Positions 6,684 through 55,601 of a DNA stretch of 64,000 nt are shown piece by piece (within the stretch, counting starts at the first letter, position 1; every line of letters begins with the position of its first letter). The notes under the pieces were generated by a model, which saw only the letters and a list, made by a program, of their open reading frames with translations, did not search any database and was not told where the DNA came from. The translations under genes were made by a program, and so were the position numbers. Source of the DNA: Micromonospora echinaurantiaca. Lineage in GTDB: Bacteria; Actinomycetota; Actinomycetes; Mycobacteriales; Micromonosporaceae. The stretch lies in NCBI RefSeq assembly GCF_900090235.1, contig NZ_LT607750.1, positions 62,001-126,000 of the forward strand, read 5' to 3'.

Positions 6684-7517
6684 TCAGCCGGTGCAGTTCA
6701 CCCAGTACAGCCGCTCGTCCGTCACGACGGTGCGCCCGTCGACGGTGATCCGGCAGCTGATCGGAGCCCGATGGTCGTGGTTCGCCAGGACCATCACCCG
6801 GCCGGCGTCGTGCATCCGCAGGCTCCGCCGCCACGGCAGCGTGACCTGCTCGACCTGGATGAAGTCGCCGTTGGCGTCGTAGTACTCCAGGTCCGCGGGG
6901 CCGCGCCCGGTCACCTCGTACACCACGGTGACGTCGCCCGGCCCGTCGGACGGGGTCAGCGCCGGCCGTACCGTCGGGCGCGTCTGGGTCGGCCAGGCCT
7001 CCGGCTCGTCGTAGTCGTAGTACGGGTCGTAGGTCTCCTGGGCGTACGGGTCGTCCGGGTAGGGGGTGTCGGCGCTGTAGATGAGGCCGGCGACGCCGAG
7101 GCAGGCGCAGAGCCCGAACGCGAGGACGGTGGTCACGGCGACGATGACGCCGACCACCGTCGACCGGTTGCCCGAGCGGGCCGGGGCCGGCGGCACGTAC
7201 GGCGGCGGGTAGCCGGGCGGCAGGTGGCCCGGCGGGTACCAGGCCGGCCCCGGGGCGCCGGCCGGCGGCGGGAAGCCCGGCGGGGCGCCGGCCGGGCCCG
7301 GCGTGCCGGGTGGCGTCCACGGGCCGGGCGCCGCCCAGGGCTGGGGCGGCGGCGTCGGGTCCGGCGGGGTCCACGGCGGCGGCGTGTCCGGGCCGGGTGC
7401 CGCCGGCGGGCCGGACACGGCGGCGTCGGGTGCGGCCGGTCCGGTGGACGGCGCGGGGTCGGGTGCGGCCGGTCCGGTGGACGGGGTGGGGTCTGGGGGC
7501 GGCGGGGCCTCGGACAT
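6684..7517 (-). CDS. MmpS-like membrane-anchored protein with Pro-rich N-terminus
   Basis: A 277-residue protein in three parts: about 112 residues very rich in Pro, Gly and Ala, one membrane segment (STVVGVIVAVTTVLAFGLCACLGVAGLI), and an acidic linker leading to an outside domain. The last 85 residues (VTVVYEVTGRGPADLEYYDANGD, LPWRRSLRM, CRITVDGRTVV) match the pattern of the mycobacterial MmpS family, which assists MmpL lipid exporters. No MmpL gene is nearby. The ATG at 7517 is preferred over upstream in-frame codons because GGAG lies nine bases before it and the sequence parallels the start of the paralogue at 7728-8432. Confidence 0.75.
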   Translation of the reverse strand: MSEAPPPPDPTPSTGPAAPDPAPSTGPAAPDAAVSGPPAAPGPDTPPPWTPPDPTPPPQPWAAPGPWTPPGTPGPAGAPPGFPPPAGAPGPAWYPPGHLPPGYPPPYVPPAPARSGNRSTVVGVIVAVTTVLAFGLCACLGVAGLIYSADTPYPDDPYAQETYDPYYDYDEPEAWPTQTRPTVRPALTPSDGPGDVTVVYEVTGRGPADLEYYDANGDFIQVEQVTLPWRRSLRMHDAGRVMVLANHDHRAPISCRITVDGRTVVTDERLYWVNCTG

Positions 7518-7727
7518 GGGGTCAGCTCCGGTGGGGCGGGTGGGGGCGTCCGCGACGCCGGTGGCGGCGTACCGGCGCTGCAAGCCGGCGGCTCAATGTA
7601 CGCGGACGGACCGCGTGATGGGCGGCACCGGGACGCCGCTGACTGTGGAGGCCGGGGTGGGGCGGTCAGAGGGTGTCGTATGCGATCCGTCCGCGCAACC
7701 CTGTTGATCAGCCCGGCGGATGAGCTG

Positions 7728-8432
7728 TCACGCCGCGCCGAAGCAGCTGGCCCGCCACGCGCCGCGGCCGGCCGTCTCGGTCGCCGCCGGGCTGCCGTCC
7801 ACGGTGACCGAACAGGAGACCGACCAGCTCGCGTCGTCGGGTTTGCTGGCCTGCACCATCACCAGGTCGAGCCGGTCGGTACGGACGCTGGTGCGCCACG
7901 GCAGCCGCACCGCGTCCAGCCAGATCGGCGCGCCGTTGGCGTCGTGGTAGAGGATGTCGGCCGCGCCCCGCCCGGTCACCTCGTAGACCACCCGGATCCG
8001 ACCCGGTCCCTGCGACGGGGTGGCCGCCGGGCTGGCCGAGGGGCTCGGTGACGCGGAGACGCCCGGCGGCGGCACGTCGCCGGCCTCGGTGCCCAACTCG
8101 CCGGTCGTCGACTCGATTTGCGGCCGGTCGTCGGGGCGGAGCAGCTCGTAGCCACCGAACCCCAGCCCGGCGGCGAGGACGAGCACGCCGGCGAGCACGG
8201 CGGCCAGCGGCCCGCGCCGGGACCGGCGGCGGCCCGCGGAACCGCCGCCACCGGCCTCGGCGGCAGTGGGCCGCGGTGCCGGCGGATCGGTGTACAGCGG
8301 GGTGGCGGGGATCCACGGGTCCGGCTGTGCCGCGTGTCCCGGGTCGGGCCGCGGGTCGAGCGGCGCCCAGGGGCGCGGCTCGGCCGCCGGGGGCCGGGTC
8401 GGCGGATCGGTGGGCGGGGTCGTCTCGGACAC
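7728..8432 (-). CDS. MmpS-like membrane-anchored protein, paralogue
   Basis: A 234-residue paralogue of the preceding protein with the same plan: a Pro-rich cytoplasmic N-terminus, a basic patch, one membrane segment (GPLAAVLAGVLVLAAGLGFGGYELL), a Thr/Ser/Pro-rich linker and a C-terminal domain (IRVVYEVTGRGAADILYHDANG, LPWRTSVRT, CSVTVDGS). Both C-terminal domains keep two Cys that could form a disulfide. It starts at a GTG with GGAG upstream. About 210 bases separate the two genes, so they may have separate promoters. A role in envelope transport is an inference from the MmpS likeness. Confidence 0.75.
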   Translation of the reverse strand: MSETTPPTDPPTRPPAAEPRPWAPLDPRPDPGHAAQPDPWIPATPLYTDPPAPRPTAAEAGGGGSAGRRRSRRGPLAAVLAGVLVLAAGLGFGGYELLRPDDRPQIESTTGELGTEAGDVPPPGVSASPSPSASPAATPSQGPGRIRVVYEVTGRGAADILYHDANGAPIWLDAVRLPWRTSVRTDRLDLVMVQASKPDDASWSVSCSVTVDGSPAATETAGRGAWRASCFGAA

Positions 8433-8650
8433 GGTCGCTCCAGGTGCCGGGTCAGGTGCACCGGCGCGCCTACGGGGAACGCCGGCCCGGGCGAGCCTGT
8501 CGTACCGCCGCCGGGGTCCGCAACCCGGCCTCCGCGTCGGCCGACCTGGTGCGGGGTGTTTGCCCGGTTAGTCCACAATTTCGACCTGATCGCTCAAGTT
8601 CAGTGATCGTATACCCGGCTTTCGAGCACACCTGGTGAGCGATACTGGGT

Positions 8651-8656
8651 TAGGCT
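8651..8656 (+). promoter_or_regulatory. Leaderless -10 box of glmS
   Basis: TAGGCT stands seven bases before the ATG at 8664, and there is no Shine-Dalgarno sequence. This spacing puts the transcription start at or beside the start codon, as in actinobacterial leaderless genes. Confidence 0.6.
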
Positions 8657-8663
8657 GCCACCC

Positions 8664-10577
8664 ATGTGTGGAATCGTGGGGTACGCCGGATCGCGCCCGG
8701 CGCTGGGCATCGTGCTGGACGGACTGCGGCGGCTGGAGTACCGCGGCTACGACTCGGCCGGGGTGGCCGTCGTCTGCGACGGTGAGCTGCTCACCGAGAA
8801 GAAGGCCGGCAAGCTGGCCAACCTGGAGAAGGTCCTGTCCGAGCGGGCGGCCGACGACCCGACGTCCTGCGGCGCGAGCCCGATCGGGATCGGCGACGGC
8901 ACCACCGGCATCGGGCACACCCGCTGGGCCACCCACGGCGGCCCCACCGACCGCAACGCCCACCCGCACCTGGCCCCCGACGGCCGGGTCGCCGTCATCC
9001 ACAACGGCATCATCGAGAACTTCGCGAAGCTCCGCGCCGAGCTGGAGGCCGACGGCGTCCAGTTCACCAGCGACACCGACACCGAGTGCGCGGCGCACCT
9101 GCTCTCCGCCGCGCTGGCCGACCTGCGCGCCGCCGGCCACCCGGAGGGGCCGCAGCTGCTCGCCGCCGGCATGCGGGTGGTCTGCCAGCGGCTGGAGGGA
9201 GCGTTCACCCTGCTCGCCGTCGACGCCGCGGTGCCCGGCGCGGTGGTCGGCGCCCGGCGCAACTCGCCGCTGGTGGTGGGTCGTGGCGACGGCGAGAACT
9301 ACCTCGCCAGCGACGTCGCCGCGTTCATCGAGCACACCCGGGACGCGGTGGAGCTGGGCCAGGACCAGATCGTCCTGATCACCGGCGACACCATCGAGAT
9401 CACCGACTTCGCCGGCCAGCCCGCCAGCGGCAAGGACTTCCACATCGACTGGGACTCCTCGGCCGCCGAGAAGGGTGGCTACGACTGGTTCATGCTCAAG
9501 GAGATCGAGGAGCAGCCGCAGGCCATCGCCGACACGCTGCTGGGGCGGCTCACCGAGACCGGCGAGATCGCGCTCGACGAGGTCCGCCTCAGCGACCAGG
9601 ACCTGCGCGACGTCGACAAGATCTTCATCGTCGCCTGCGGCACCGCGTACCACTCGGGCCTGGTCGCCAAGTACGCCATCGAGCACTGGACCCGGATCCC
9701 CTGCGAGGTGGAGCTGGCCAGCGAGTTCCGCTACCGCGACCCGGTCCTCGACCGGTCCACGCTGATCGTGGTGATCTCGCAGTCCGGCGAGACCATGGAC
9801 ACCCTGATGGCGCTGCGGCACGCCAAGGAGCAGAAGGCCCGGGTGCTGGCGATCTGCAACACCAACGGCTCCACCATCCCGCGTGAGTCCGACGCGGTCC
9901 TCTACACCCACGGCGGGCCGGAGATCGCGGTCGCCTCCACCAAGGCGTTCCTCACCCAGCTGGTCGCCTGCTACCTGATCGGCCTGCACCTGGCCCAGGT
10001 CCGCGGGGTCAAGTACGCCGACGAGGTGGCCGCGGTGGTGGCCCAGCTCCAGGAGGTGCCGGGCAAGCTGCGCGAGCTGCTGGACCGGATCGAGCCGGTC
10101 CGCGAACTGGCCCGGGAGCTGAAGAGCGAGCCGACCGTGCTCTTCATCGGCCGGCACGTCGGCTACCCGGTGGCGCTGGAGGGTGCGCTCAAGCTCAAGG
10201 AGCTGGCGTACATGCACGCCGAGGGCTTCGCGGCGGGCGAGCTGAAGCACGGCCCGATCGCGCTGATCGACAAGGGCACCCCGGTGGTCTGCGTGGTGCC
10301 GTCGCCGGCCGGCCGGGGCGTCCTGCACGACAAGGTCGTCTCCAACATCCAGGAGGTGCGGGCGCGCGGCGCCCGCACCATCGTGATCGCCGAGGAGGGC
10401 GACGAGGCGGTGGTCCGCTACGCCGACCACCTGATCCGCGTGCCGCGCACCCCGACGCTGCTCGCGCCGCTGCTCACCACCGTGCCGTTGCAGGTGCTGG
10501 CGGCCGAGATCGCCGCCGCCCGGGGGCACGACGTGGACCAGCCGCGCAACCTGGCCAAGTCCGTCACCGTCGAGTAG
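8664..10577 (+). CDS. glmS: Glutamine-fructose-6-phosphate aminotransferase (isomerising)
   Basis: A 637-residue glucosamine-6-phosphate synthase, the entry step of UDP-GlcNAc and so of peptidoglycan synthesis. It begins MCGIVGY, so Cys2 is the N-terminal nucleophile of the glutaminase domain. GHTRWATHGGPTDRNAHPH and YRGYDSAGVAVV are diagnostic of that half. Two sugar-isomerase (SIS) domains follow (CGTAYHSGLVAKY, SQSGETMDTLMAL, STKAFLTQLV), and the end DQPRNLAKSVTVE is the conserved isomerase tail. Length is slightly above the usual 608-625. The gene stands alone on the plus strand, with a leaderless promoter, and heads the conserved acpS-nnr-alr backbone. Confidence 0.97.
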   Translation: MCGIVGYAGSRPALGIVLDGLRRLEYRGYDSAGVAVVCDGELLTEKKAGKLANLEKVLSERAADDPTSCGASPIGIGDGTTGIGHTRWATHGGPTDRNAHPHLAPDGRVAVIHNGIIENFAKLRAELEADGVQFTSDTDTECAAHLLSAALADLRAAGHPEGPQLLAAGMRVVCQRLEGAFTLLAVDAAVPGAVVGARRNSPLVVGRGDGENYLASDVAAFIEHTRDAVELGQDQIVLITGDTIEITDFAGQPASGKDFHIDWDSSAAEKGGYDWFMLKEIEEQPQAIADTLLGRLTETGEIALDEVRLSDQDLRDVDKIFIVACGTAYHSGLVAKYAIEHWTRIPCEVELASEFRYRDPVLDRSTLIVVISQSGETMDTLMALRHAKEQKARVLAICNTNGSTIPRESDAVLYTHGGPEIAVASTKAFLTQLVACYLIGLHLAQVRGVKYADEVAAVVAQLQEVPGKLRELLDRIEPVRELARELKSEPTVLFIGRHVGYPVALEGALKLKELAYMHAEGFAAGELKHGPIALIDKGTPVVCVVPSPAGRGVLHDKVVSNIQEVRARGARTIVIAEEGDEAVVRYADHLIRVPRTPTLLAPLLTTVPLQVLAAEIAAARGHDVDQPRNLAKSVTVE

Positions 10578-50078: not shown

Positions 50079-50220
50079 GTCGACCCCTCTCCCCGTACCT
50101 GACTCGACGCTCCGACGGCGGCCTCGGTTGCGTCCGGGGGGCGGCGGGCGGTGGACGGGGTGCATGATCGCGCGAAAACTGCCCCTGGCGCGACAGCTAC
50201 TGACCGGTAATGATGCGTCC

Positions 50221-51918
50221 ATGCGGTACGACGTGCTCGTCATCGGGTCCGGCTTCGGCGGCAGCGTGACCGCGCTGCGGCTGGCCGAGAAGGGCTACAC
50301 CGTCGGCGTGCTGGAAGCCGGGCGGCGGTTCGCCGACGACGAGTTCCCGCAGACCTCCTGGCGGCTGCGCCGCTTCCTCTGGGCGCCGAAGCTGGGCTGC
50401 TACGGCCTGCAACGGATCACCCTGCTCCGCCCCGCCGACCGCCGGGCCGGCGGCGGGGTGATGGTGCTCTCCGGCACCGGGGTCGGTGGCGGCTCGCTGG
50501 TCTACGCGAACACCCTCTACGAGCCGCTGCCCGCGTTCTACGCCGACCCGCAGTGGCGGGACATCACCGACTGGCGCGACGAACTGGCCCGACACTACGA
50601 CCAGGCGAAGCGGATGCTCGGCGTCACCACGTACCCGATGGTCACCGGCGCGGACCGGGCGATGCGGGCGGTGGCCGAGCGGATGGGGGTGGGGCACACC
50701 GTGCACGCCACCCCGGTCGGGGTGCACATCGGCCGCCCCGGCGAGCGGGTCGCCGACCCGTACTTCGGCGGCGCCGGCCCGGAGCGCACCGGCTGCACGC
50801 ACTGTGGCGCCTGCATGACCGGCTGCCGGCACGGGGCGAAGAACACCCTGGTGAAGAACTACCTCTGGCTGGCCGAGCGGCTCGGCGTGCGGGTGCACCC
50901 GCTGACCACGGTGACCGCGGTCCGGCCGGCCGCCGACGGCGGCTACGCGGTGGAGACCGTCCGCACCGGGGCGTGGCTGCGCCGGCGCCGCCAGGTGATC
51001 CACGCCGACCAGGTGGTCTTCGCCGCCGGCGCGCTCGGCACCCAGCGGCTGCTGCACGAGATGAAGGCCACCGGCGCGCTGCCCGCGCTCTCGCCCCGGC
51101 TCGGCGAGCTGACCCGGACCAACTCGGAGGCCATCCTCGGCGCCTCGGTGCCCCGCCGGCAGGCCCGGGCGCAGGGGATCGACTTCACCGAAGGGGTGGC
51201 GATCACCAGCTCGTTCCACCCCGACCCGCAGACCCACATCGAACCGGTCCGCTACGGCCGGGGCTCCAACGCGATGGGGCTGCTCCAGTCGCTGCTGGTC
51301 GACGGCGGGCCGCACCGGGTACGCCGCTGGCTGGGCATCCTGCTGCGCCAACCCGGCACCGCGGCCCGGATGCTCAGCGTGCGCGGCTGGTCGGAGCGTA
51401 CGGTGATCGCCCTGGTCATGCAGTCCGCCGACAACTCGCTGACCACCCGGCTCCGGCGTGGCCCGTTCGGCCGGCGGCTGGTCTCCGGCCCCGGCCACGG
51501 CACCCCCAACCCGACCTGGATCCCGGCCGGCAACACCGCCGCCCGGCTGCTCGCCGAGGAGATCGGTGGGGTGCCCGGCGGCTCGCTCACCGAGCCCTTC
51601 GACATCCCGATGACCGCGCACATCCTGGGCGGAGCGGTGATCGGCGCCACGGCGGCCGACGGGGTGATCGACCCCTGGCACCGGGTCTACGGGCACCCCG
51701 GGCTGCACGTGGTGGACGGCGCGGCGATCTCGGCGAACCTCGGGGTGAACCCGTCGCTGACCATCACCGCCCAGGCCGAACGCGCCATGTCGTTCTGGCC
51801 CAACAAGGGCGAGCCGGACCCCCGGCCCCCGCTCGGTGCCGCGTACCGCCGCCTGGACCCGGTCCCCCCACGCCACCCCGCGGTCCCGGCGGACGCCCCC
51901 GGCGCCCTCCGGAGGTGA
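50221..51918 (+). CDS. GMC family oxidoreductase, cholesterol oxidase (ChoD)-like
   Basis: A 565-residue flavoenzyme. MRYDVLVIGSGFGGSVTALRLAEKGYTVGVLEAG is the FAD Rossmann motif; GVMVLSGTGVGGGSLVYANTLY and the C-terminal HILGGAVIGATAADGVIDPWHRVYGHPGLHVVDGAAISANLGVNPSLTITAQAERA are typical of the cholesterol oxidase branch. Residues 192-202 read CTHCGACMTGC, a CxxCxxCxxxC pattern like a 4Fe-4S site. The position after guaB3 and before guaA is the same as choD (Rv3409c) in M. tuberculosis. Sterol oxidation is not proven; the natural substrate may differ. TAATGA seven bases before the ATG may be a leaderless -10 box. Confidence 0.85.
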   Translation: MRYDVLVIGSGFGGSVTALRLAEKGYTVGVLEAGRRFADDEFPQTSWRLRRFLWAPKLGCYGLQRITLLRPADRRAGGGVMVLSGTGVGGGSLVYANTLYEPLPAFYADPQWRDITDWRDELARHYDQAKRMLGVTTYPMVTGADRAMRAVAERMGVGHTVHATPVGVHIGRPGERVADPYFGGAGPERTGCTHCGACMTGCRHGAKNTLVKNYLWLAERLGVRVHPLTTVTAVRPAADGGYAVETVRTGAWLRRRRQVIHADQVVFAAGALGTQRLLHEMKATGALPALSPRLGELTRTNSEAILGASVPRRQARAQGIDFTEGVAITSSFHPDPQTHIEPVRYGRGSNAMGLLQSLLVDGGPHRVRRWLGILLRQPGTAARMLSVRGWSERTVIALVMQSADNSLTTRLRRGPFGRRLVSGPGHGTPNPTWIPAGNTAARLLAEEIGGVPGGSLTEPFDIPMTAHILGGAVIGATAADGVIDPWHRVYGHPGLHVVDGAAISANLGVNPSLTITAQAERAMSFWPNKGEPDPRPPLGAAYRRLDPVPPRHPAVPADAPGALRR

Positions 51919-51936: not shown

Positions 51937-53016
51937 TCAACCCGCCGGGCGTCGGAGCACGGGTTCGCGCCGGTCCGTCCAGGCGACCAGTGCCGCGTGC
52001 GGGAGGGTCAGCGCGGCCAGCACGGCGACCGTCGCGGGCAGCGGGTCCGCCCGGTGGCCGGGCCAGGTGACCAGGGCGAGCAGGGCGGCGACGGCGACCG
52101 CCGTGGGGGCCGCCGCCTGCCGCGCGAAGCGACGCAGCGGCGGTCCGACCCGCCCGGCCTCCAGGTCGGCCGCGTTCCCCGGATCGTGTCGCAGCAACCG
52201 GGCGACGTGGCGGCAGGAGTGCCAGGCCGCGAAGTACGCCCCGATGGCCAGGGCCGGCGGCACGGTGCTGAACAGCGCGGTGAGCAGGGCCGGTGGGACG
52301 GCGTCGCGGACGCGTCCGGCACGCACCTCCCGGATCGCGGTGGCCGCGACCGCGCACAGCACGGTGGCCAGTGCCAGCGTCCTCACCTCGACGGTGAGCA
52401 GCGCCGGTGCCCGTGGGGCCACCGCCGCCAGCAACGGGTCGACCTGGTCCCGCCACAGCGCCAACGGGACGACCACCGGCGGTCCCCCGTACGCGAGCAC
52501 GGCGGCCACTCTCGGCCGGATCGGTCGGCGGTCCCGTTCGGCGTGGAACGCCTCGTCGGCGGTGCCGAAGTGGACAACCGACACGATGAGGAAGCCGACC
52601 AGCGCCAGGTCCGGCGCGGCCCGGAAGGCCGTCAGCCCGACGCCGGCCACGGCCGGGTAGGCGACCAGCAGCGCCACGCGTGCCGACACCGGGCGGCCGC
52701 GCGCCGACAACCAGGCGGGCACCAGGTGGTCGACGGCGCCGTGCGGGAGCCCGAGGAGCAGCCCCGCGAGCAGGAAGGCCGGCGAGCTGACCGGCCCGGC
52801 GGCGTCGATCAGCGGCGACAGTGCCAGCAGGCCGCCGAGCGCGAGCTGCGACACTGTCCCGGCGCACCGCAGCAGCCGGTCCGGCCTTCGCGGGCCCTCC
52901 GCCTCGTCGGTCGCGCCCGACGGCGGCCGTGCGGTCCGGGCGGGTGCCCGGCCGTCCGCCACCGGCACTCGGGGGCCGGCCCCGCGCGCCGGGTCAGACG
53001 ACGGTGAGGTGTCCAC
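51937..53016 (-). CDS. blh: Brp/Blh family beta-carotene 15,15'-dioxygenase
   Basis: A 359-residue integral membrane protein. Residues 1-50 are polar and low in complexity; eight or so hydrophobic segments follow. The conserved histidines of the family are seen: LGLPHGAVDH (His92, His97), SVVHFGTADE (His149), AAWHSCRHVARL (His266, His270) and TLPHAAL (His340). The spacings of 57 between His92 and His149 and of 4 between the last iron-ligand pair fit the recalled pattern of Blh. The enzyme splits beta-carotene into two retinals. Its GTG overlaps the end of the rhodopsin gene by 23 bases, so the product should supply the chromophore. The start is uncertain, as no Shine-Dalgarno is present; codons 18 or 55 could also serve. 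No carotenoid genes are in the window. Confidence 0.85.
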   Translation of the reverse strand: MDTSPSSDPARGAGPRVPVADGRAPARTARPPSGATDEAEGPRRPDRLLRCAGTVSQLALGGLLALSPLIDAAGPVSSPAFLLAGLLLGLPHGAVDHLVPAWLSARGRPVSARVALLVAYPAVAGVGLTAFRAAPDLALVGFLIVSVVHFGTADEAFHAERDRRPIRPRVAAVLAYGGPPVVVPLALWRDQVDPLLAAVAPRAPALLTVEVRTLALATVLCAVAATAIREVRAGRVRDAVPPALLTALFSTVPPALAIGAYFAAWHSCRHVARLLRHDPGNAADLEAGRVGPPLRRFARQAAAPTAVAVAALLALVTWPGHRADPLPATVAVLAALTLPHAALVAWTDRREPVLRRPAG

Positions 53017-53692
53017 GGTCGGACAGGGCGCGAAGCCGGCCGAGATCGAGGATGCTCCAGCCCACCTTCGTGAGGATGGACAGCAGGACGAAGAGCAGGC
53101 TGGTGGTGGCGGAGCTGATCAGGCCGAGACCGGTCGGGCCGATCATCCAGAACAGGGGGTAGCCCACCCAGAGCACGCTGAGCATCAGGGCGGCCTCCGT
53201 GTACACCGCCGCGACCGGTTCCGGCTGACGGTGCGCGTGGGTGCGCAGCGGGCCCCAGACCAGGCCGTAGATGCCGAGGAACGCCAGGACCCCGATCGTG
53301 AACAGGGTGTATCGGAGCGTGGCGTCCGCCGCGAGCTCGGCGGTCACCCCGCTGAGGAACACCACCAGGTTCGTCCCGACGAGGGCACCCGCCAGTCCCC
53401 AGCGGCGCCCGGGCAGCGAGTGCGTCGCGGTCAGAACCAGGGCCACCAGCAGCAGGGGGGAGGTGACCGCCCAGTCGACGTACCGCGCCCAGTAGAGCGT
53501 GTGGCCAGCCACCTCCGCCCGGCCGCCGCCCAGCGCCATGACCAGGTACCAGAAGCCCGACCAGAGCGGGATCGCGATCGCCACCCGGTACTCGCTGAGC
53601 GGGACTCCCCGCGGGTTGGCCTGCCAGCGAATGAACAGCACGACCCCAGCGGCCATGGCGGCGACGTACATCCACAGCCACCACTCGGTCAT
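52994..53692 (-). CDS. Microbial rhodopsin, Anabaena sensory rhodopsin/xenorhodopsin type
   Basis: A 232-residue seven-helix protein. Helix C reads [16 protein letters not shown] with Arg70, counterion Asp73 and Thr77; the donor position is Ala84. Helix F has [14 protein letters not shown] with retinal-pocket Trp175, Tyr178, Pro179 and Trp182. Helix G has the Schiff-base Lys209 in [15 protein letters not shown]. Ser205 stands where bacteriorhodopsin has Asp212 and Anabaena sensory rhodopsin has Pro206. Asp216 matches Asp217 of the latter, a cytoplasmic proton acceptor. Similarity to that protein runs the whole length ([19 protein letters not shown]-x-S-x-LDL). The ATG has AGGAG upstream. A TATACG near 53783-53788 may be its -10 box. 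It could be a light sensor or inward proton pump; an outward pump is unlikely. Confidence 0.92.
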
Positions 53693-54047
53693 GCCCACTC
53701 CTCGGCCGACTCCCGACGCGCCGCGCACCCGGCTGCGCGCTTCCGATCCCGGGCGGGAGCCTGTGCGGGACGACAGGGACACCGTATACAGCCCAAAAGC
53801 CGCAGATCTGGCTAATGACTCCCGCGGGCGGGGTGGTGCCGCCGTCAGATCACCTGCACGGTGGCCGACATCACCTCCGGGGTGGCGCGCGGCGTCCGGC
53901 TCCACGACGTCGCGTGCGGGCTCGGCGTGGCCGAGAGGTACGTGCGCCGGTCGCCGCGCGTCGCCCGGCCACCTGGGGGTCTACCCGCGGTGGCGTAGCG
54001 GCGGACCGGCGGGGGGTCCGGCGGCGTCGTCGGTAGGATTTGCTGCC
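53693..54047. other. Intergenic region between divergent rhodopsin and guaA genes
   Basis: This 355-base stretch has no confident gene. Near 53770-53820 it is less G+C-rich and holds GTATAC (53784-53789), part of a possible rhodopsin promoter. A plus-strand frame of 46 codons (53861-53998) has no start signal and no recognisable product. The guaA -10 box lies at 54034-54039. Confidence 0.6.
54034..54039 (+). promoter_or_regulatory. Leaderless -10 box of guaA
   Basis: TAGGAT is eight bases before the ATG at 54048, without a Shine-Dalgarno sequence. Confidence 0.55.

Positions 54048-55601
<1,554 letters not shown>

Follow-up and report, generated by a model that had tools for sequence, protein, structure and literature searches.

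The rhodopsin gene in the window (the whole 64-kb stretch of Micromonospora DNA analysed here) encodes a member of the xenorhodopsin clade in which the helix-G proline described as diagnostic of these proteins is replaced by serine. The gene overlaps that of a Brp/Blh-type retinal-forming enzyme and adjoins the 3' remnant of a lost sodium-pump rhodopsin gene (Table 1). As far as sequence comparison can indicate, its most likely role, which we favour on balance, would be to pump protons inward in the light, as a stand-alone device with a coupled retinal supply.

Table 1. Features of the rhodopsin locus in the window
Feature	Position	Strand	Remarks
GMC oxidoreductase gene (cholesterol-oxidase-like)	50212-51918	plus	543 bits, below the model cut-off of 850; flank opposite to guaA
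Brp/Blh beta-carotene 15,15'-dioxygenase gene	53016-51937	minus	359 aa; starts at a GTG within the rhodopsin gene
Rhodopsin-Blh gene overlap (stop and start, respectively)	52994-53016	minus	23 nt; translational coupling presumed
Xenorhodopsin-clade rhodopsin gene	53692-52994	minus	232 aa; ATG start; Asp73, Lys209, Ser205, Asp216, Glu34
GTATA(C/G)G-containing upstream block (TGTATACGG in the window)	53769-53821	minus	Candidate promoter/operator; conserved in 8/26 loci
3' fossil of an NDQ sodium-pump rhodopsin (NaR) gene	53843-53995	plus	NaR residues 207-258; between the xenorhodopsin gene and guaA
guaA (GMP synthase, named by eye)	54048-55601	plus	Flank of the conserved site

The rhodopsin frame, found on the minus strand where the first-pass annotation had placed it, is preceded by a ribosome-binding site (AGGAG ending five bases 5' of the ATG). 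Its product scored 149 bits against Pfam PF01036 (cut-off 24.6), the single match to this profile in the whole genome (7.2 Mb, one contig), and matched no NCBIfam model; its named near relatives are from Micromonospora. The top PDB sequence match was Anabaena sensory rhodopsin (ASR; residues 6-226, 185 bits), in line with the full-length alignment claimed earlier, and the second was BcXeR (157 bits). For the AlphaFold2 model (pLDDT 94.8), the closest PDB fold was BcXeR (7zmy; TM 0.93, rmsd 1.1 A), with ASR next (TM 0.90). Asp73 is assigned as the counterion and Lys209 as the retinal lysine, with Asp216 and Glu34 on the cytoplasmic side; these residues, as well as Thr77 and Ala84, match those of the ASR/BcXeR-type rows. 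Helix C reads DTA, not DTE, and Ala84 at the donor position provides no carboxylate. The first-pass annotation had read the D-T-A motif and Asp216 correctly at all four residues. Its replacement of the proton-release Glu residues of bacteriorhodopsin (BR) by Thr was also recovered in our by-eye alignment to BR, in which we take Thr187/Thr197 to stand at the positions of BR Glu194/Glu204.

From 129 six-frame matches, 38 duplicates and 16 rows under 200 aa (among them the xenorhodopsins L086, L089 and L092) were left out before construction of a 131-row tree, which used 27 of 91 database homologues. The window rhodopsin falls inside a 68-row xenorhodopsin clade (support 99) that includes ASR, BcXeR and cyanobacterial, Hymenobacter, Porphyrobacter and nanohaloarchaeal rows, whereas the DTE- and DTD-type actinobacterial rows, the NDQ sodium pump and the haloarchaeal rows lie outside. 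The clade was also present in a more careful 76-row tree (support 100/100), where the window protein belongs to a clade of 36 rows, all of actinobacterial origin where named (support 100/99). Nanohaloarchaea, BcXeR and distant rows have long branches, and the placement of the window protein is independent of them. On the evidence of these trees, it was confirmed that the window rhodopsin is a xenorhodopsin-clade member and not an actinobacterial DTE pump, as had been proposed. Actinorhodopsin identity was rejected on tree and residues together (DTA, Ser205, separate clade).

A passage in Ugalde et al. (2011; PMC3198991) describes Pro at the position of BR Asp212 as universal in xenorhodopsins and as a potentially useful diagnostic. 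At this position in helix G (ASR Pro206), the window protein has Ser205. Among the 131 rows, position 205 is Asp in 63/63 outside the xenorhodopsin clade and Pro (39), Ser (27) or Thr (2) in the 68 inside it; Pro is found in each of the 32 xenorhodopsin rows that do not belong to the actinobacterial 36-row clade, and that clade itself comprises 7 Pro, 27 Ser and 2 Thr. The full set of 91 database homologues has Pro in 50, Ser in 36, Thr in 1 and Asp in 4 cases, the Asp residues belonging to the four weakest matches. When columns 205 and 70 were excluded from tree building, the Ser/Thr rows grouped as a single 29-row clade (support 97/88), with two changes in total, Pro to Ser once and Ser to Thr once. 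Since Ser205 replaces the diagnostic Pro, the earlier label of xenorhodopsin-type needs a qualifier: it holds for clade position, but not for the helix-G residue. Judged by tree and residues, the window rhodopsin is a Pro-less variant nested in the xenorhodopsin clade, not a typical member. We know of no functionally tested xenorhodopsin with Ser at position 205.

Comparison with known systems gave the following picture: 1) BcXeR of Bacillus coahuilensis, the PDB entry of which (7zmy) is titled 'light-driven inward proton pump', shares with the window protein the fold, the Asp counterion, Arg at BR Arg82, the donor-position Ala and the Glu34/Asp216 pair, but has Pro for Ser205 and Ser for Thr77, at 40% identity. 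2) ASR has the equivalent residues Asp75, Asp217 and Glu36, but carries Pro206 and is placed in an operon with ASRT in a passage of PMC3267196, whereas the window gene has Ser205, forms an operon with Blh and has no ASRT match in its genome. 3) PoXeR and NsXeR likewise have a single outer counterion and a cytoplasmic Asp acceptor (Asp216 and Asp220, respectively), but the XeR family, as described in part of PMC5118547, has Pro at BR Asp212. 4) Two Nanohaloarchaea rows have Pro at BR Asp212 and Phe/Trp at position 70, where the window protein has Ser205 and Arg70. Within the Micromonosporaceae, Asp73, Lys209 and Asp216 are unchanged in 26/26 xenorhodopsins, Asp216 also being unchanged across all 68 rows of the clade, and Glu34 is kept in 23 of the 26 (L048-L050 lack it). 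The Arg at position 70 (BR Arg82) is replaced in seven of the family rows by His (5), Tyr (1) or Gln (1), and five changes at this position were mapped on the tree within the Ser clade.

The downstream gene scored 166 bits with both PF15461 (cut-off 28) and NCBIfam TIGR03753 Brp/Blh (cut-off 95.25), which upholds its earlier identification as Brp/Blh overlapping the rhodopsin gene by 23 bases, and it is the one PF15461 match in the whole genome. In a 24-row alignment (Blh of L035, L049 and L050 left out), His97, His149, His266, His270 and His340 are invariant and His92 is nearly so; these conserved histidines are presumably metal ligands. Of the 24 adjacent pairs, 9 (those of the window's 8-row xenorhodopsin clade and of L050) offer a possible Blh start codon with the 23-nt overlap, 14 offer one with a 4-nt overlap (TTG in one case), and 1 (L048) has no overlapping start. 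Since codons 9-46 taken alone show no coding pattern, the exact Blh start rests on the conserved overlap. Third-position GC (Blh 0.92, rhodopsin 0.94) and dN/dS (Blh 0.24-0.62 in 14 pairs, and up to 0.66 in a separate comparison; for rhodopsin see below) indicate that both behave as translated genes. For the Blh frame, purifying selection and an overlapping GTG available as start in 8/8 loci of the window's clade agree with its having been taken as a gene in the first-pass annotation.

A xenorhodopsin homologue was detected in 23/160 Micromonospora genomes and in 26/354 genomes of the family (3/44 genera), weak PF01036 matches in G006, G023, G109 and G323, and in G195 and G334 (just above the cut-off), being left uncounted as rhodopsins. 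Blh adjoins the xenorhodopsin gene in 24/26 family loci, and PF15461 was found in 23/23 xenorhodopsin genomes of the genus versus 2/137 others (Fisher p = 8e-26, 160 genomes), so that the proposal that pigment protein and chromophore supply form a module was borne out within the Micromonosporaceae. The two exceptions fit the same rhodopsin-Blh link. In G135, which has no xenorhodopsin, Blh is divergent to a sodium-pump rhodopsin. In G071, which has no PF01036 match, the Blh match (L203, 6793-7554, minus strand) lies at the guaA-GMC site and starts at residue 101 of the window's Blh, and this gene without its first 100 residues is a truncated relic. G064 and G077 carry an isolated xenorhodopsin and a different Blh beside their sodium pump. 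Because this second Blh lineage (43-44% identical) is divergent beside the sodium pump in L204, L205 and L206 (G135, G064 and G077), two rhodopsin-Blh pairings can be distinguished in the genus. Outside the family, Blh was found beside xenorhodopsins in 0/18 named loci, using a Blh HMM that detects the distant Halomicrococcus Blh on flanks of about 0.05 to 6 kb, several of them short.

Production of beta-carotene is plausible because CrtE-, CrtB-, CrtI- and CrtY-type genes are present in the window's genome: genes for a polyprenyl synthase, a phytoene synthase and a phytoene-desaturase-like flavoprotein are located at about 6.595-6.601 Mb (G000:C1), and a lycopene cyclase gene at 2.225 Mb. A MerR/B12-binding regulator is encoded beside the carotenoid genes (about 6595400-6600650). 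LitR/CarH-type regulators of this class sense light, and the position of the gene suggests that the supply of retinal precursor is under light control.

guaA and the GMC gene flank rhodopsin in 17/23 genomes of the genus; these loci also contain an M1-type peptidase gene (17) and a LytR-type gene (15), both named by eye. The GTATA(C/G)G block is confined to the window's 8-row xenorhodopsin clade, and no counterpart was found in the 400 bases upstream in the remaining 18 family loci. The window contains a single TGTATA, both strands counted. A GTATA element shared with the carotenoid genes was considered and rejected, the element being absent from two genome stretches around the crt genes.

In 14/26 family loci, a rhodopsin with the sodium-pump motif NDQ (R-Y-V/M-N-W-S-I-D...Q), of the kind of MNaR of Micromonospora strain CNB394, is the divergent neighbour of the xenorhodopsin gene; in 11 of these loci, it separates the xenorhodopsin gene from guaA. 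Photocurrents of 1-2 pA are given for MNaR in a passage of PMC5531490. These pumps form a separate clade with Asp at position 205, whereas the window xenorhodopsin has Ser205 and adjoins only an NDQ fossil. Both rhodopsins are present in 16 of the 160 genus genomes, xenorhodopsin only in 7 (including the window's) and the sodium pump only in 1; the three xenorhodopsin genomes of other genera have xenorhodopsin only, which gives 10/26 genomes without sodium pump.

The fossil is 54% identical to NaR of L028 over 52 columns (E 3.6e-9) and scores 42.7 bits, against a highest score of 25.0 in 1000 dinucleotide shuffles. NaR residues 1-206 are missing, and Gly stands in place of the retinal lysine; read collinearly, the stop would lie 46 bp 5' of guaA, matching the intact L028 gene. 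Among the sisters, L029 and L027 have weak matches (best E 0.003 and 0.02, respectively) that lie in the same stretch and orientation, closer to guaA, and L026 and L032 have no match in the right orientation below E 0.4. Since a chance-looking L040 match also reaches E 0.02, only the window's fossil is firm. No sodium pump is encoded elsewhere in the window's genome, as judged by its one PF01036 match. Because only the 3' fossil remains, the window lineage has lost the sodium pump and kept xenorhodopsin and Blh; on this alignment evidence, the ancestor of the window locus carried a divergently transcribed sodium-pump rhodopsin. Neither the fossil nor Ser205 figured in the first-pass annotation.

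Light-driven inward proton transport has been shown for several xenorhodopsins. For the window locus, it is envisaged that i) rhodopsin and Blh would be made from one message with coupled translation, ii) Blh would cleave beta-carotene to retinal, which would bind Lys209 and be isomerised by light, and iii) the Schiff-base proton would exit to the cytoplasm via Asp216 (with Glu34) and be refilled from outside. The proton would be expected to leave toward the cytoplasm because Asp73 is the sole outer carboxylate at the Schiff base, the second one of BR being replaced by Ser205, and inward pumping would be expected because Ser, like Pro, removes the second charge. Passages in PMC5118547 state that the second outer counterion is thought to set pumping direction, offer its Pro replacement as the reason for inward pumping, and tie the inward direction of PoXeR to the missing second counterion, with D216 as acceptor and E35 nearby; in NsXeR, D220N abolishes current, according to part of PMC8518763. 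An illuminated inward pump would depolarise and acidify the cell. At the ancestral locus, light would have powered Na+ export along with H+ import, and an inward proton pump beside an outward sodium pump would thereby give light-driven Na+/H+ exchange. Since 10 of the 26 xenorhodopsin genomes have no sodium pump, xenorhodopsin would also serve alone, and the open rhodopsin frame and adjacent Blh kept in these genomes suggest an independent role for it.

The key residues are no proof of pumping, because ASR shares Asp75, Asp217 and Glu36 and yet, in a reviewers' exchange printed with PMC3198991, is described as having no proton-pump function. The main alternative, which we consider less likely, is that the window protein is a photochromic light sensor which cycles in the manner of ASR without net pumping and signals to a partner other than ASRT. 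ASR is its best PDB sequence match and the acceptor pair is common to both, but the fold is marginally closer to BcXeR and no obvious transducer lies beside the rhodopsin gene, where guaA and the GMC oxidase gene are the usual flanks in the genus. Moreover, the ASRT profile PF07100 gave 0 matches in the window's genome, as the first-pass annotation would have it for the ASR transducer, while the same profile did match Thermotoga maritima among 14 control genomes.

We offer more tentatively the idea that the Ser205 clade might be a functionally new xenorhodopsin branch, which is unlikely as it stands: an ancestral Na+-out/H+-in pair with local retinal supply would have undergone the Pro to Ser change and then repeated loss of Arg82, giving a leaky pump, a light-gated proton channel or a sensor, and this device would have persisted after the sodium pump was lost in several species, including the window's. 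In 14 pairs compared, rhodopsin dN/dS was 0.27-0.58 in 12 Ser-clade pairs versus 0.14-0.25 in two Pro-clade pairs, and it exceeded that of the neighbouring sodium pump in 6/7 genome pairs; values for comparison were 0.04-0.19 for guaA, 0.13-0.27 for GMC, 0.16-0.45 for the LytR-type gene and 0.11-0.19 for the sodium pump. The higher rhodopsin dN/dS and the loss of Arg70 (7/26) would suit a changed or loosened function and count against the inward-pump reading. The same two observations would fit a leftover that drifts and does little after the Pro to Ser change and, in the window, the loss of the sodium pump. Such a leftover is nevertheless improbable, since every dN/dS is below 1 and similar to that of the LytR-type neighbour, Asp73, Lys209 and Asp216 are invariant in the family, Blh is adjacent in 10/10 and has an overlapping start in 9/10 of the family loci without sodium pump, and the xenorhodopsin-less G071 has a truncated Blh too. 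An ordinary outward proton pump of the actinorhodopsin/proteorhodopsin kind is most improbable: many of the actinobacterial rhodopsins found are of DTE or DTD type, but the window protein is split from the DTE rows by branches with support 100 and from all Asp-205 rows by one with 99, with no donor carboxylate at Ala84 and no second counterion at Ser205.

The physiological use of inward proton pumping is, to our knowledge, still unexplained. The Micromonospora strains supply natural genotypes with both pumps, xenorhodopsin only or the sodium pump only; this use, therefore, should be testable by gene removal in named strains. In addition, this natural Ser/Thr clade has sisters within the genus that keep Pro, M. 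phaseoli and Verrucosispora being among the carriers of Pro-bearing homologues, and the contrast sets 'no charge' apart from 'proline kink' as the explanation for inward pumping. Rhodopsin genes of Micromonospora are already known: Carro et al. (2018; PMC5765111) list 'proteorhodopsin' in nine type strains and 'sensory rhodopsin II' (SRII) in four, in passages that contain no xenorhodopsin link, Blh operon or proline change. Among the titles and abstract starts searched, which covered non-subscription journals, no literature on the Ser clade or on the sodium-pump/xenorhodopsin pair was found.

Two observations on related proteins may be added. An uncultured Pseudokineococcus (L081, 6001-6690) encodes a Pro-type actinobacterial xenorhodopsin, and the region beside it (about 6750-8870) contains what we take, by eye, to be a photolyase-related gene. 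Sister xenorhodopsins with His or Tyr for BR Arg82 (L045-L050, P0055 and P0061) belong, where named, to Micromonospora, Plantactinospora and Solwaraspora. Changes of BR Arg82 are known elsewhere as Alt-rhodopsins, as part of PMC9601134 describes, and the nine actinobacterial Alt-rhodopsins mentioned there may include these sisters.
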